The notes beneath the pieces are model-generated. The model was not told where the DNA came from, did not search any database, and worked only from the letters and a program-made list of their open reading frames with translations. A stretch of 35,823 nucleotides of DNA, taken from assembly GCA_009908385.1 (NCBI GenBank), contig JAAAPE010000096.1:1-35823 (forward strand). Direction: 5' to 3'. This document shows positions 6,190 to 11,294 of the stretch, piece by piece. Made by a program: the position numbers and the translations under genes. The number at the start of each line of letters is the position of its first letter. Position 1 is the first letter of the stretch. The DNA is from Gammaproteobacteria bacterium. GTDB lineage: Bacteria; Pseudomonadota; Gammaproteobacteria; Xanthomonadales; Wenzhouxiangellaceae.

Positions 6190-7156
6190 CCGCCCTCTCG
6201 TAGGCTTCGACGATGCGCCGCACGATGGGGTGTCGAACCACGTCTCGCGCGTCGAAGAAGGTCGTGCTAACGCCTTCGACCTCCTTGAGCAGGCCGATGG
6301 CCTGGCGCAGGCCGGAACCGACCTTCGGCGGCAGGTCGACCTGGGTGAGATCGCCGGTGATGACCGCCTTCGAGCCGAAACCGATGCGCGTGAGGAACAT
6401 CTTCATCTGCTCGGAAGTGGTGTTCTGCGCCTCGTCGAGGATGACGAACGCGTCGTTGAGCGTGCGGCCGCGCATGTAGGCCAGCGGCGCCACCTCGATG
6501 ACGTTGCGCTCGGTCAGGCGTGCCGCCTTCTCGAAGCCGAGCATTTCGTACAGCGCGTCGTGCAGCGGGCGCAGGTAGGGATCGACCTTCTGCGCCAGGT
6601 CGCCGGGCAGGAAACCGAGTCGCTCCCCGGCCTCGACGGCGGGTCGAACGAGCACGATGCGCTGGACTCGGTCCGACTCGAGCGCGTCGACGGCGCAAGC
6701 CACGGCGAGGAAGGTCTTGCCGGTACCGGCGGGCCCGACGCCGAAGTTGACGTCGCATTCGCCGATGCGGCGGATGTAGCGCTTCTGATTCGGTCCCCGG
6801 CCGCGGATCATGCCGCGCCGGGTACGTATGCCGACCTCGATGTCCTCGTTTTCCGGCTCGTCAAGGCCGGACTGCTGAAGCTGCAGATTGACGGCCGACG
6901 GGCTCAGGACTTCTCCTTCGGACTGGCGATAGAGCTGGCGCAGAACGCGTCGCGCAGCAGTAACGGCATCGGGCTCGCCCTCGATGCTGAAGAGATTGCC
7001 GCGCGCGGCGATTGCCACGCCCAGCCGATTCTCGATCAGGCTGATGTGTTCGTCGAGGTGGCCACAGAGGTTGGCCAGCCGTTCGTTGTCGACCGGCTCG
7101 AGTTCGAGCGTGACGGCCGTTTCGGGAGCGGATGCGGGCATTTCAGGCGGCGGCAT
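6167..7156 (-). CDS. ybeZ: PhoH-like ATPase (YbeZ)
   Basis: About 329 residues (324 if started at the second Met at 7141, which lies one base past the miaB stop; neither start has an ideal ribosome-binding site). An N-terminal region of about 110 residues, KH/R3H-like in this family, precedes a P-loop ATPase with Walker A GPAGTGKT near residue 143 and Walker [10 protein letters not shown] near 242. PhoH-like proteins act with the YbeY RNase in RNA metabolism. The position between miaB and ybeY is the standard order. Confidence 0.93.
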
Positions 7157-8486
7157 CCTGCTTGCGGTCGAGACGCCCGCGAAGCGAATTGGCGAGTGCG
7201 CCGGTGATCACGACGTCGGCCATGCCGCCCACCAGTTCGGGCGGGCCGGGGAAATTCACGACCCGGTTGTTCTCGGTGCGGCCGGCCAGCTCGTTGCCGT
7301 CCTTGCGGCTGGTGCCTTCCACGACGACGCGCTGGCGCGAGCCGACCATCGCTTCGGCGTAGCCGCGTGCCTGCCGGTTGAGCTGATCCTGAAGACGACG
7401 CAGACGATCCTTCTTCTCTTCAAGCGTCACGTTGTCGGGAAAGGAAGACGCCGGCGTGCCGGGACGAGCCGAGTAGATGAAGCTGAAGCTCTGGTCGAAC
7501 TCGAGATCGCGCACCAGGTCGAGCGTCTGCTGGAAGTCCCGCTCGGTCTCGCCCGGAAAGCCGACGATGAAATCCGAACTCAGCGCGATGTCCGGACGTA
7601 CTTCGCGCAGTCGGCGGATCTTCTGCTTGTACTCGAGAATGGTGTGACCGCGCTTCATCAGCGACAGCACGCGGTCGGATCCGGCCTGGACCGGCAGGTG
7701 CAGATAGTTGGCCAGCTTGGGCACGTCGCCGAAGGCCTCGACCAGGCTGTCGGAGAATTCCACCGGGTGCGAGGTCGTGAAACGGATGCGTTCGATCCCG
7801 TCGATGTGGTCGACATAGCGGATCAGCAGCGCCAGGTCGGCGGTGCCGCCGTCGTGCATCGGCCCGCGATAGGCGTTGACGTTCTGCCCGAGCAGGTTGA
7901 TCTCGACCACGCCCTGCCCGGCGAGCTCGGCCACCTCCGCGATGACGTCGTCGAGCGGACGGCTGACTTCCTCGCCGCGGGTGTAGGGCACGACGCAGAA
8001 GGAACAGTACTTCGAGCAGCCCTCCATGATCGACACGAAGGCGCTGCCGCCCTTCTTGCCCGGGCTCGGCAGGTGGTCGAATTTCTCGATTTCGGGAAAG
8101 GAGATATCGATGGCCGGCTTGCCGGCCTGCCGGACATTGTCGAGCATCGCCGGCAGCCGGTGGATGGTCTGCGGCCCGAACACCATGTCCACGAACGGAG
8201 AACGTCTGACGATATTCTCGCCTTCCTGGCTGGCCACGCAGCCGGCCACGCCGATCACCAGGTCCGGACGCGCCTCCTTGAGCGGCCGCCAGCGACCGAG
8301 TTGCGAAAAGACCTTTTCCTGGGCCTTCTCGCGGATCGAACAGGTATTGATCAGGATGACGTCGGCCTCGTCGGGGCTGTCGGTCAGTTCCAGGCCGTGG
8401 GAGGCCGCCAGCACGTCGGCCATCTTTTCCGAGTCGTACTCGTTCATCTGGCAGCCGTGGGTCTGGATGTAGAGCTTGCCCGGCAT
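7143..8486 (-). CDS. miaB: MiaB, tRNA-2-methylthio-N6-dimethylallyladenosine synthase
   Basis: A 447-residue radical-SAM methylthiotransferase acting on i6A37 of tRNAs. The N-terminal UPF0004 domain carries three cysteines (in [20 protein letters not shown] and VAGCVAS) for the auxiliary 4Fe-4S cluster. The radical SAM CxxxCxxC is at CSKYCSFC, about residues 157-164. A TRAM domain occupies about the last 65 residues. I chose the ATG at 8486; an in-frame TTG 12 bp upstream would add four residues. It is the first gene of the miaB-phoH-ybeY-corC run, and its stop lies next to or within the start of phoH. A palindromic element lies 66 bp upstream of the start. Confidence 0.95.
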
Positions 8487-8585
8487 GAAGTCGCTCAAGG
8501 GTTTGAAAGACCGTTCATTTTACCGCACGAAGGCCGCTGCTGCCGACCACCTAGTGGGCCATGCGGCAAGTTAGCTAACGCTCAG

Positions 8586-8682
8586 CCGCAACACAAGCGT
8601 TGTGGGCAAGGCGCGCGAGCGCAGGACTGGCCGTAGCCAATTCAAGCGAGTGCAACGCTGGCCCACGACGCTTGTGTTGTGG
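8586..8682. repeat. Inner hairpin A of the palindromic element
   Basis: The arms 8586-8607 and 8661-8682 are inverted repeats of 22 bp matching at 20 positions. They enclose about 53 bases without a strong further stem. Confidence 0.8.
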
Positions 8683-8690
8683 CCCTTCGG

Positions 8691-8788
8691 GAGCCACTGT
8701 GTGGGCGCGACTCGGCGTTGCGTTTCTTGCCAAGGGCAGCCAGCCTTGCCGGCGAAACGTGCCTTGATTCGCGCCCACACAGTGGCTC
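8691..8788. repeat. Inner hairpin B of the palindromic element
   Basis: The arms 8691-8710 and 8769-8788 are a perfect 20-bp inverted repeat (GAGCCACTGTGTGGGCGCGA and its complement). Inside, a shorter imperfect stem joins CGTTTC (8722-8727) to GAAACG (8754-8759). Confidence 0.8.
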
Positions 8789-8794
8789 TGAGCA

Positions 8795-9892
8795 TTAGCT
8801 AACTTGCCGCATGGCCCACTGGCGACTGCGGAAACGCACGCGCCGCGTGATGCGGCAGACGAGCTCGTAGGGAATGGTGCCGGCCGCCTCGGCCACGGTC
8901 TCGATCGGCAGGCCCTGCCCCCACAGCACCACCTCGTCGCCGACCGTCGCGTCGGGGCAGCCCGCCAGGTCGATCGTGATCATGTCCATCGAAACGCGGC
9001 CACACATGCGGCAGTGTCGTCCATCGACCAGCACGGGCGCGCCGTCGACCATGCTGCGCGGATAGCCGTCGCCGTAGCCGATACTGGCCACGCCGACGCT
9101 CATGTCCTGTTCGGCCCTGAAGCGCGCGCCATAGCCGATGCTCTCGCCCGCCGCGACCCGGTTGACCGCCATCAGCTCGGCGGTGAGCGTCATCGCAGGC
9201 TCCAGCTCCAGCTCCGGACCCGGCCGGCCCGGCAGCGGCGAAATGCCGTAGAGCACCAGGCCCGCCCTGACCCACTCGAAGCGGGCCTGGGGCAGGTTGA
9301 TCAGCCCGGCCGAGTTGGCCAGGCAGCGCTCGCCATCGAGCGCATCGGTGGCGCGGTGGAAGCGCTCGAGCTGCAGGGCGTTGAGCGGGTGCGAGGGCTC
9401 CTCGGCGCAGGCGAAATGGCTCATCAGGTTGACCTGCTCGACCCCGGGCAGGTCGAGCAGCCGACGATGCATCCCGGCCGCCGCTTCGACGGGAACGCCG
9501 AGACGGTGCATGCCGGTGTCGATCTTGAGCCAGAGCCGGCTCGCCGGAGAACGCCCGAAGCGCTCCAGCGCCTCGAGCTGGTGGGGATGATGGATGGTCA
9601 GCTCCAGCCCCAGATCGGCGGCAACCGCGAGGTCACCGTGGTCGTTGACGCCCTCGAGCAGGAGCACCGGGAGCCCGTTGCCGAGCCGCCGGATGGCCCG
9701 GGCTTCCTCGATCGTGGCCACTGCCAGCATGTCGGCGCGCTCGAGCGCGGGCAGGCACAGATCGAGGCGATGGCCGTAGGCGTCGGCCTTGACCACAGCC
9801 ATGATACGACTGTCGGGCGCGAACTTCCGCACGCGCCCGAGGTTGTGGGCGATCGCGGCCGGATCGATGTGGGCGATTGTGTTGCGAGCCAT
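8795..9892 (-). CDS. alr: Alanine racemase (C-terminus rewritten by an inserted palindrome)
   Basis: A 365-residue PLP enzyme that makes D-alanine for peptidoglycan. The N-terminal TIM barrel carries the PLP lysine K35 in AVVKADAYGH. The second catalytic base is Y254 in SIGYGARF, and the C-terminal beta domain includes the GRVSMDM segment. The start at 9892 opens directly at the conserved N-terminus and lies 28 bp after the dnaB stop, the common dnaB-alr order. The last eight residues (from Q358) and the TAA stop are encoded by the right end of the palindromic element, just after the conserved RITRRVRF segment; the original terminus appears to have been replaced. The catalytic core is intact, so the enzyme is probably functional. 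Confidence 0.93.
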   Translation of the reverse strand: MARNTIAHIDPAAIAHNLGRVRKFAPDSRIMAVVKADAYGHRLDLCLPALERADMLAVATIEEARAIRRLGNGLPVLLLEGVNDHGDLAVAADLGLELTIHHPHQLEALERFGRSPASRLWLKIDTGMHRLGVPVEAAAGMHRRLLDLPGVEQVNLMSHFACAEEPSHPLNALQLERFHRATDALDGERCLANSAGLINLPQARFEWVRAGLVLYGISPLPGRPGPELELEPAMTLTAELMAVNRVAAGESIGYGARFRAEQDMSVGVASIGYGDGYPRSMVDGAPVLVDGRHCRMCGRVSMDMITIDLAGCPDATVGDEVVLWGQGLPIETVAEAAGTIPYELVCRITRRVRFRSRQWAMRQVS

Positions 9893-9920
9893 ACGGTCGA
9901 CTAAGGCAGCAAGCGCGGGA

Positions 9921-11294
9921 TCAGCCGTCCTGGCCGTAGTGATCCGGCGTGAAGTCGCGGAATCGCACGAACTCGCCCTGGAACGCCAGCTTGAAGTTGT
10001 CGGTGGCGCCGTTGCGGTGCTTGCCGATGATGATCTCGGCGGTTCCCTTGTCGGGGGAATCCTCGTTGTAGACCTCGTCGCGATAGATGAACAGGATGAG
10101 GTCGGCATCCTGCTCGATCGCCCCGGACTCGCGCAGGTCGGCCATCTTCGGCCGTTTGTCGGGGCGCTGTTCCAGCGCGCGGTTGAGCTGCGAGAGCGCC
10201 ACGACCGGCACGTCGAGCTCCTTCGCCAGGGCCTTGAGACTGCGCGAGATCTCGCTGATCTCGTTGGTGCGGTTCTCGGCCGAGCCGGGTGCCTTCATCA
10301 GCTGCAGGTAGTCGACCAGGATCAGCCCGATGTCGTGCTCGCGCTTCATCCGGCGGGCGCGGGCGCGCAGGTCCGTGGTGGTCAGCGAGGGCGTCTGATC
10401 GATGAAGATGTTGGCACCCTTGAGCAGGGTCATGGCCGAGCGAAGATTGACCCAGTCCTGGCCCTCGAGCCGGCCGGTGCGCAGGCGCTCCTGGTTGATC
10501 TGGCCGAGCGAGGAAAACAGGCGCATCACCAGCTGAATGTCGGACATCTCCATCGAGAACACCGCGACGGGCACCTTGTGACGGATCGCAGCTCGTTCGG
10601 CGATGTTCATCGCGAAAGAGGTCTTGCCCATCGAAGGGCGGGCGGCGACGATGATCAGGTCCGTCTTCTGCAGTCCGGACGTGCGCTTGTCCAGGGCCGC
10701 GAAGCCGGTCGGCACGCCGGTCAGCTCGCCTTCGTTCTGCTGCAGCTCGTTGAGCAGGTCCATGGCGCTGGCCATGACGTCGCGGACGCTGACGTAACCC
10801 GAATTCCGGTGCGCTCCCTGGTCCGCGATCGCGTAGATGCGCTGCTCGGCCTCCTCCAGCACTTCCTTGGAACTGCGTCCCGCCGTCTGCAGGGCATTGT
10901 CGGCGATGTCGGTCCCGATCTGGATGAGCTGGCGCAGGATCGACTTTTCGCGCACGATCTGCGCGTAACCCGACGCATTGGCCGGTCCCGGCGTCTCGTT
11001 CGCCAGCATGGTGAGATAAGCGCCCGAATCGACCTTCTCCAGCTTGCCGTGCCGGGAGAACCATTCCGTGACCGTCACCGCGTCGCAGGGCTGACCGTCG
11101 TCGATCAGATCGGCGATGGCGCGAAATACCAGGCGATGATTCTCGCGGTAGAAATCGACCTCGTCGACCTGCCCGGCCACCCGATCCCAGACATCGGGCC
11201 CGAGCATGAGTGCCCCCAGCAGTGACTGCTCCGCCTCGTTGGAGTGGGGCGGCGCCTTGACGTTGCTCAGGGTGGAAATGCGGGGTTCTGCCAC
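9921..11294 (-). CDS. dnaB: Replicative DNA helicase DnaB
   Basis: A 457-residue hexameric 5'-3' helicase. The N-terminal DnaB domain spans about residues 15-120, a linker helix follows, and a RecA-like domain carries Walker A ARPSMGKTS at 218-226, Walker B LILVDYLQLM, and the AIEQDADLILFIYRDE segment. It starts at GTG (GTGGCAGAACCC). No intein or insertion is visible; the length is normal. It is followed by alr at 28 bp. About 190 bp separate it from rplI upstream. Confidence 0.97.
   Translation of the reverse strand: MAEPRISTLSNVKAPPHSNEAEQSLLGALMLGPDVWDRVAGQVDEVDFYRENHRLVFRAIADLIDDGQPCDAVTVTEWFSRHGKLEKVDSGAYLTMLANETPGPANASGYAQIVREKSILRQLIQIGTDIADNALQTAGRSSKEVLEEAEQRIYAIADQGAHRNSGYVSVRDVMASAMDLLNELQQNEGELTGVPTGFAALDKRTSGLQKTDLIIVAARPSMGKTSFAMNIAERAAIRHKVPVAVFSMEMSDIQLVMRLFSSLGQINQERLRTGRLEGQDWVNLRSAMTLLKGANIFIDQTPSLTTTDLRARARRMKREHDIGLILVDYLQLMKAPGSAENRTNEISEISRSLKALAKELDVPVVALSQLNRALEQRPDKRPKMADLRESGAIEQDADLILFIYRDEVYNEDSPDKGTAEIIIGKHRNGATDNFKLAFQGEFVRFRDFTPDHYGQDG

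Follow-up and report, generated by a model that had tools for sequence, protein, structure and literature searches.

Between miaB and alr, the window (the whole stretch of DNA analyzed here, 35,823 nt) carries a structure that raises two questions: what kind of element folds so elaborately, and does its interior have a function? An earlier note, made from the letters alone, had described a nested palindrome at 8553-8820 as more elaborate than a simple MITE, and we found the palindrome to be real. Its outer arms (8553-8585 and 8788-8820; 33 nt) are 97% complementary (32/33, the first 26 bases perfectly so), and they enclose inner arms that are 88% complementary in the first pair (8585-8610 and 8658-8683) and 96% complementary in the second (8691-8713 and 8766-8788). 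RNA folding of 8545-8828 gave -199.3 kcal/mol on the + strand and -198.9 kcal/mol on the - strand, with z-scores of -14.6 and -16.5, respectively, and none of 200 shuffles was as stable on either strand. In the predicted fold, the outer stem encloses two long hairpins separated by a short CCCTTCGGG hairpin or linker, in keeping with the nearly fully paired, multi-arm fold that had been anticipated. No ORF of at least 90 aa lies wholly inside the element, whose features are listed in Table 1.

Table 1. Features of the element and its neighbors at the miaB-alr junction of the window
Feature	Position	Strand	Basis or remark
Left boundary CTAG	8551..8554		TA at 8552-8553
Mobile element proper	8554..8819		266 bp, assuming duplication of TA; four relatives have the empty site
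Left terminal inverted repeat, ~27 bp	8555..8581	+	Matches ends of L129:3041-4187 and L165:3556-4702 (IS630-type carriers)
TCAG junction, terminal repeat to module	8582..8585	+	Such junctions in other twin elements: TCAG 34/62, TCTG 6/62
Module 1	8586..8682	+	Stem of 22 bp, 8586-8607/8661-8682; core 8608-8658 (AAGG...AACGC)
Linker CCCTTCGGG	8683..8691		CCCnnnGGG in 27/31 facing pairs elsewhere
Module 2, opposite orientation to module 1	8692..8787	-	Same module
CTGA junction (8788-8791) and right terminal inverted repeat (8792-8818)	8788..8818	-	Arm complementarity, end matches
Right boundary CTGG	8819..8822		Probably a former CTAG with one substitution at 8821
alr (alanine racemase)	8795..10108	-	Pfam PF01168, PF00842; frame compared with relatives
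miaB, downstream neighbor	7143..8498	-	Pfam PF00919, PF04055, PF01938

Dispersed copies, CTAG boundaries, and empty sites

A 291-bp query matched 29 of the 61 genomes searched (its own and 60 relatives), and one genome had as many as 36 BLAST pieces. The further copies that the earlier note had asked about therefore exist, and far from being a single-copy sequence with pairing unconserved in relatives, the element is dispersed and its pairs covary (see below). Of 39 copies, 27 have CTAG at both ends and 8 have it at one end; the other 4 lack it. This tetranucleotide is strongly avoided in the window (1-35823), with 6 occurrences versus 36.6 expected. Abutting elements can have one CTAG in common, as in G027, a genome in which L016 contains a head-to-tail row of three elements (1391-1559, 1556-1826, and 1823-2093), all bounded by CTAG but differing in their ends. 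We also observed two abutting insertion sequences joined by a single CTAG (L165:3556-6166), one with a DDE_3 transposase (1,147 bp) and the other with a DDE_5 transposase (1,468 bp). The end motif occurred in at least 115 stretches, and the matches listed include Wenzhouxiangella, Thioalkalivibrio, Microbulbifer, Thiodiazotropha, and Solemya and tubeworm symbionts, among others.

Empty sites were likewise found. The alr-miaB junction is uninterrupted in four relatives (L249-L252, from genomes G003, G010, G011, and G024), and the window without the element and one CTAG has the same length as these relatives. The spacing from an AGTCG-like block to TGGTCGG is five bases in all four relatives and in the element-deleted window. 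Read along alr, the target CTAG places a TAG in frame right after ...RFRSR. The alr genes of the four empty-site relatives have no stop at that place and continue for 12 further codons, so that a TAG stop before the insertion is one we infer for the lineage of the window. That site is CAG today, and alr reads on into the element, whose right end now provides its last eight codons (QWAMRQVS) and its TAA stop (8795-8797).

CTAG on both sides together with an empty site holding one CTAG is compatible with duplication of TA or of CTAG alike. The boundaries of two copies (L199 and L213) are CTAA...TTAG, which favors TA as the duplicated target. A preference for TA in CTAG was reportedly described by Tenzen and Ohtsubo in 1991.

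Other CTAG-bounded sequences vary in size and content. One element forms a size series (both CTAGs counted) from 404 bp (L043) through 335 bp (L046), 232 bp (L052 and L053), and 166 bp (L055) to 40 bp of bare ends (L056:306-345), across which hairpins have been gained, lost, or extended. Three further palindromic elements of 168-169 bp (L083:5220-5388, L145:6691-6858, and L016:1391-1559) have a different core, which looks alike by eye and is possibly a second structured payload family. The element itself had no match in plasmid, phage, and E. coli collections. When the plasmids were searched with the element and its flanks, matches were confined to the miaB and alr parts of the query, and plasmid searches with two related elements yielded one 57-bp match (on an Azotobacter plasmid) for one and none for the other.

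IS630-type transposases with matching ends

The earlier note had suggested looking for a transposase whose ends match AGTGGGCC, and two such elements turned up, both in other genomes. The carriers in L129 and L165 (Table 1) are 1,147-bp, CTAG-bounded elements with ends as in the window element, each encoding a DDE_3 transposase (354 and 357 aa, 68% identical to each other; PF13358 E-values of 1.4e-22 and 2.7e-24). Since the scan of genome contigs required 16 bases at one end, only the remainder of that end and the other end count as independent: the left ends were identical to the element ends at 23-29 of 30 positions, with 16 of those bases preselected, and the unselected right ends at 21-24 of 30.

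Relatives of the L165 transposase at an E-value of ≤1e-20 were absent from the window's own genome (85% complete), and across the 60 relatives at the same threshold they were limited to a 44% homolog (G034), whose ends appear to differ, and a partial match (G060). Judged from the shared ends, the type of engine is known, an apparent IS630-type transposase, and no such transposase was detected in the window's host at that threshold. One IS630-type copy (in G034, beside CTAGTGGGCC) was considered as a partner and rejected, as it appears to have other ends, flanked by TA. Six source genomes of module elements with TACTCTTTCAA-like ends contained no DDE_5 transposases.

A pair search over the examined loci recovered a partner for TTAACCCGGCA ends alone, along with three poor TGGGCC pairs (13-14 of 25 matching). 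This second IS630-type element, with ends TTAACCCGGCA and a PF13358 transposase, is present in four copies in G027 (L070 and L072-L074), with TA on all eight outer sides. Module-bearing elements with the same ends were found at five loci (L210, L212, L045, L058, and L050). One of these is composite: at L050:436-1549, a TTAACCCGGCA-ended element is nested in a CTAGTGGGCC-ended one, and modules occur in both parts. The best stretch between the L070-type and L165 transposases is 36% identical over 76 residues (pairwise E-value of 3e-7), and they are therefore distant relatives in one family. The covariance model of the hairpin module (R1, described below) detected no module in the transposase-bearing elements of L070, L072-L074, L129, and L165. 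Together with the matching MITEs for both transposases, this indicates that the module is common to MITEs of two transposase lineages.

The window element is short and non-coding, with terminal inverted repeats, many copies, and empty orthologous sites. It shares its ends with autonomous elements, those of L129 and L165, both outside its own genome, and its partner elements encode a DDE_3 transposase. Since the terminal ends match IS630-type insertion sequences, the best reading is that of an IS630-type MITE. From these sequence comparisons, we consider it very probable that the element is a MITE that an IS630/Tc1-mariner-type transposase mobilizes in trans and that carries twin conserved hairpin modules in its interior. 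The description of the structure as more than a simple MITE thus holds for the two conserved structured modules, while the whole still resembles a MITE belonging to a DDE (IS630-type) transposon.

Plan and covariation of the hairpin module

Both inner hairpins are copies of one module in opposite orientation. The R1 model matched module 1 at 8588-8680 on the + strand (80.1 bits) and module 2 at 8694-8785 on the - strand (80.5 bits), both sequences being among the 28 from which it was built. Read 5' to 3' from AAGG, the module has a 22-bp stem, an AAG bulge, a GCG/CGC helix, and an NAA bulge on the 3' side, followed inward by a 6-bp stem, GC(A/C)G against (C)AA, a 7-bp stem, and a loop. The stem is almost free in sequence, and the core of ~50 nt has fixed AAG and AA bulges. 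In ~80 modules, AAG is conserved at 94-99% and AA at 100%, bases that the R1 model itself favors, and most stem bases vary. GANTC-type motifs also occur inside module 2 (GACTC at 8709-8713 and GATTC at 8766-8770), perhaps by chance.

Covariation was assessed in two sets of modules. Set A1 comprises 28 different modules, 27 of them collected with a pattern requiring AAGG, AACG, and a paired outer stem (G-T counted as paired) and the 28th, the window's second module, added by hand. Because the pattern demanded them, the invariance and outer-stem pairing in A1 are partly by construction. The covariation score of A1 was 0.750 versus 0.196 for shuffled alignments and 0.118-0.172 for slid controls, and that of the three helices not demanded by the selection was 0.524 versus 0.157. 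Set A2 consists of 80 matches from a run over 53 other loci with the R1 model, which was built from A1 and favors G-U over A-C; its score was 0.845 versus 0.193 shuffled and 0.099-0.134 for slid controls. The number of double-change pairs in A2 (32) did not stand out from that in shuffles (31.1; 170 of 500 shuffles reached it). Overall, covariation of the module is very strong.

Compensatory changes, which had been proposed as a check, were also evident within the window's own family, of which 34 copies were compared. Both sides had changed in 32 of 111 pairs versus 17.7 after shuffling, with 146 double-change cells versus 37.4, and RNAalifold reported 31 of 103 pairs. The end stem (helix 1) of these copies had paired changes in 12 of 23 pairs. 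At the gathering score, no family of Rfam release 15 matched the element. At relaxed scores, two microRNA matches on the element and one in 20 module loci fell far under the gathering scores and were judged spurious.

Distribution and layout of the module

A search of the window's own genome and relatives gave R1 matches in 29 of 41 genomes (E ≤ 1e-3). In two wider samples, each including the window's own genome, matches were present in 91 of 230 genomes for the class and 95 of 299 for the phylum (both E ≤ 1e-4). Roughly one in three of the Pseudomonadota genomes sampled thus has the module. Copy numbers per genome are lower bounds; one genome assembled as a single 3.0-Mb contig (G175) has at least 107 R1 matches.

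The layout analysis took in 78 of the 80 A2 matches. A module pair was present in 31 of the 43 loci with entered matches. Adjacent modules faced each other in 31 of 32 pairs and were spaced 13-18 nt apart in 30 of 32, and TCAG or TCTG marked the outer end of the module stem at 40 of 62 places. The 31 left ends fell into 19 kinds when 11 of 15 bases had to match and into 15 kinds at 9 of 15. Elements of the Thioalkalivibrio type (164 bp) carry a single module each.

Stop codons, orientation, and strand bias

In the window, the element lies at the 3' end of alr. Elsewhere, we examined 86 CTAG-bounded elements, chosen by CTAG and end symmetry and not all module bearing, which offered 147 boundaries with at least 600 bp of flank. 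No long coding frame read into 108 of these boundaries. Among the 39 that were read into by a long frame, 28 frames ended exactly on the TAG of CTAG, 10 did not, and 1 was ambiguous; shifted control frames were evenly distributed (71, 79, and 77 of 440, with none in 213). These elements show a tendency to lie in TAG stop codons, a placement that may reflect a preference or the survival of CTAG in genes mostly as a stop.

Single-module elements were in sense behind the upstream gene in 17 of 26 and 33 of 54 cases in two sets that overlap by about four elements, one of them called differently. This slight lean is weak as evidence for an RNA function. The second set counted all 60 loci, including 15 without a regex core, for which the model position was used, and 3 truncated at a contig end. 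Genes were called by a GC-by-codon-position heuristic rather than by a gene finder, and its noise can be seen at L108 and L275, which seem to be one element with the upstream gene called differently.

On the AAGG strand, G-U exceeded A-C (191 versus 41 cells; 25 versus 7 positions, with 4 ties), with the opposite in the GCG helix, where A-C exceeded G-U by 14 to 2. Within the window's own family, the modules had 33 distinct G-U versus 23 A-C events, compared with 14 versus 13 in the end-stem control; a count of cells gives the end stem a lean toward G-U as well (31 versus 17). We did not find the within-family excess convincing.

Candidate roles of the module

By analogy with its family, an IS630-type transposase would bind the ~27-bp ends, excise the element, and join it to the TA of a CTAG, with duplication of the TA. 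Because the two modules lie in opposite orientation, each strand holds one in sense. Where a gene reads into an element, its TAG stop is usually inside the boundary CTAG, so that the protein stays intact and the message would run into the folded element. There, in the 3' untranslated region, the module may fold as RNA and serve as a signal for message stability or processing, and such a role at the 3' end could make insertions tolerable and help the element persist. The placement right behind stops, the G-U excess on the AAGG strand, and the precedent of NEMIS and ERIC point toward this RNA role, and the weak orientation bias of single-module elements and the weak within-family G-U excess count against it; as an extrapolation from sequence patterns, we regard it as a serious possibility that falls just short of probable. 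That the module works instead as folded single-stranded DNA appears rather unlikely.

An alternative is that the element is an ordinary palindromic MITE with a functionless interior, in which hairpin-templated repair copies one arm from the other and so keeps the two complementary. To our knowledge, many bacterial MITEs have no demonstrated function. The palindromy of these elements extends over their whole length, and paired changes are seen in the end stem, too (12/23 in helix 1). However, arm repair would not preserve the unpaired AAG and AA (94-99% and 100%, bases that the model favors), nor would it keep the stem lengths and the layout constant in elements with 15-19 kinds of ends or make G-U exceed A-C on one strand, an excess that is weak within the family. 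We consider this explanation unlikely. More doubtful still is that the structure is a single-strand DNA substrate, as the earlier note had proposed, recognized by an HUH transposase or a tyrosine recombinase in the manner of REP or integron attC. The long hairpins, conserved extrahelical bases, and paired copies would suit such a substrate, but the CTAG boundaries, the clean empty site, and the ends held in common with a DDE transposon argue against it, as does the TA at every outer side seen of the second IS630-type element and of MITEs with its ends. A cis-regulatory RNA or noncoding RNA gene native to the miaB-alr locus, to which the position between two conserved genes and the stable fold on both strands might point, is scarcely credible, being refuted as a locus-specific feature by the element-free orthologous junctions of four close relatives and further opposed by the copies elsewhere in many genomes and the lack of a credible Rfam match.

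Returning to the reading of the element as an IS630-type MITE with a structured interior, we tentatively propose, as an idea that approaches but does not reach probability, that the twin module represents a previously undescribed family of structured nucleic acids, untied to any one transposon. MITEs from more than one lineage of transposase would have acquired it as portable cargo, functional in either orientation as folded RNA or single-stranded DNA and making stop-codon insertions tolerated or turning them into useful 3' ends.

Comparison with known systems

MITE interiors are usually treated as filler. An interior module that is conserved in structure across a phylum, independently of transposon ends, is hard to explain unless it is functional, and it makes testable what MITEs carry and whether the payload pays the host or the element. 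With the covariance model, many repeats that lack a name can be annotated, and the placement at stop codons shows a way in which such elements could spread with little damage.

Several described repeats share features with the window element. IS630-type transposases such as that of ISY100 (Tc1-mariner type) insert at TA and duplicate it, according to extracts from PMC2170065, and the partner elements found here likewise encode a DDE_3 transposase; those elements are autonomous, unlike the window element, and the IS630-type elements tested lack the module. RUP of Streptococcus pneumoniae, a MITE of IS630-Spn1, resembles the window element in its IS630-type ends, TA target, lack of coding use, and many copies, but it is 107 bp long and has no further signature of structure or function in extracts from PMC2229807, whereas the window element is ~270 bp long with two conserved hairpin modules. 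The same extracts describe NEMIS/Correia and ERIC as MITEs reported to affect messages through RNA structure and RNase III or RNase E; by description, they differ from the window element in size and layout. CIR repeats of Caulobacter and relatives also have two inverted-repeat arms and a linker, but at ~110 bp and with GANTC in the terminal loop, they are unlike the window element, a comparison made by description alone (extracts from PMC2229807).

REP, BIME, and REPIN sequences are, in extracts from PMC3733652, hairpins that are often paired in opposite orientation and lie downstream of genes. They are palindromes of 20-40 bp with GTAG or CGTC tags, and no such tag was found at the palindrome in the window, where the boundary is CTAG, the ends are of the DDE type, and the modules are 91 nt long. 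MITEPsy1 of Pseudomonas syringae is likewise a MITE at CTAG or YTAA, but it is 100 bp long with ISPsy2-like ends and a 4-nt duplication, and extracts from PMC3189936 mention no module. The P. fluorescens repeats R178 and R200, listed by Silby et al. 2009, could be related to the module elements. Searches of open PubMed Central papers turned up no description of the module. Compared with these systems, the element is a MITE, and as such of a known kind; what is new is the phylum-wide twin module that is common to MITEs with many different ends.
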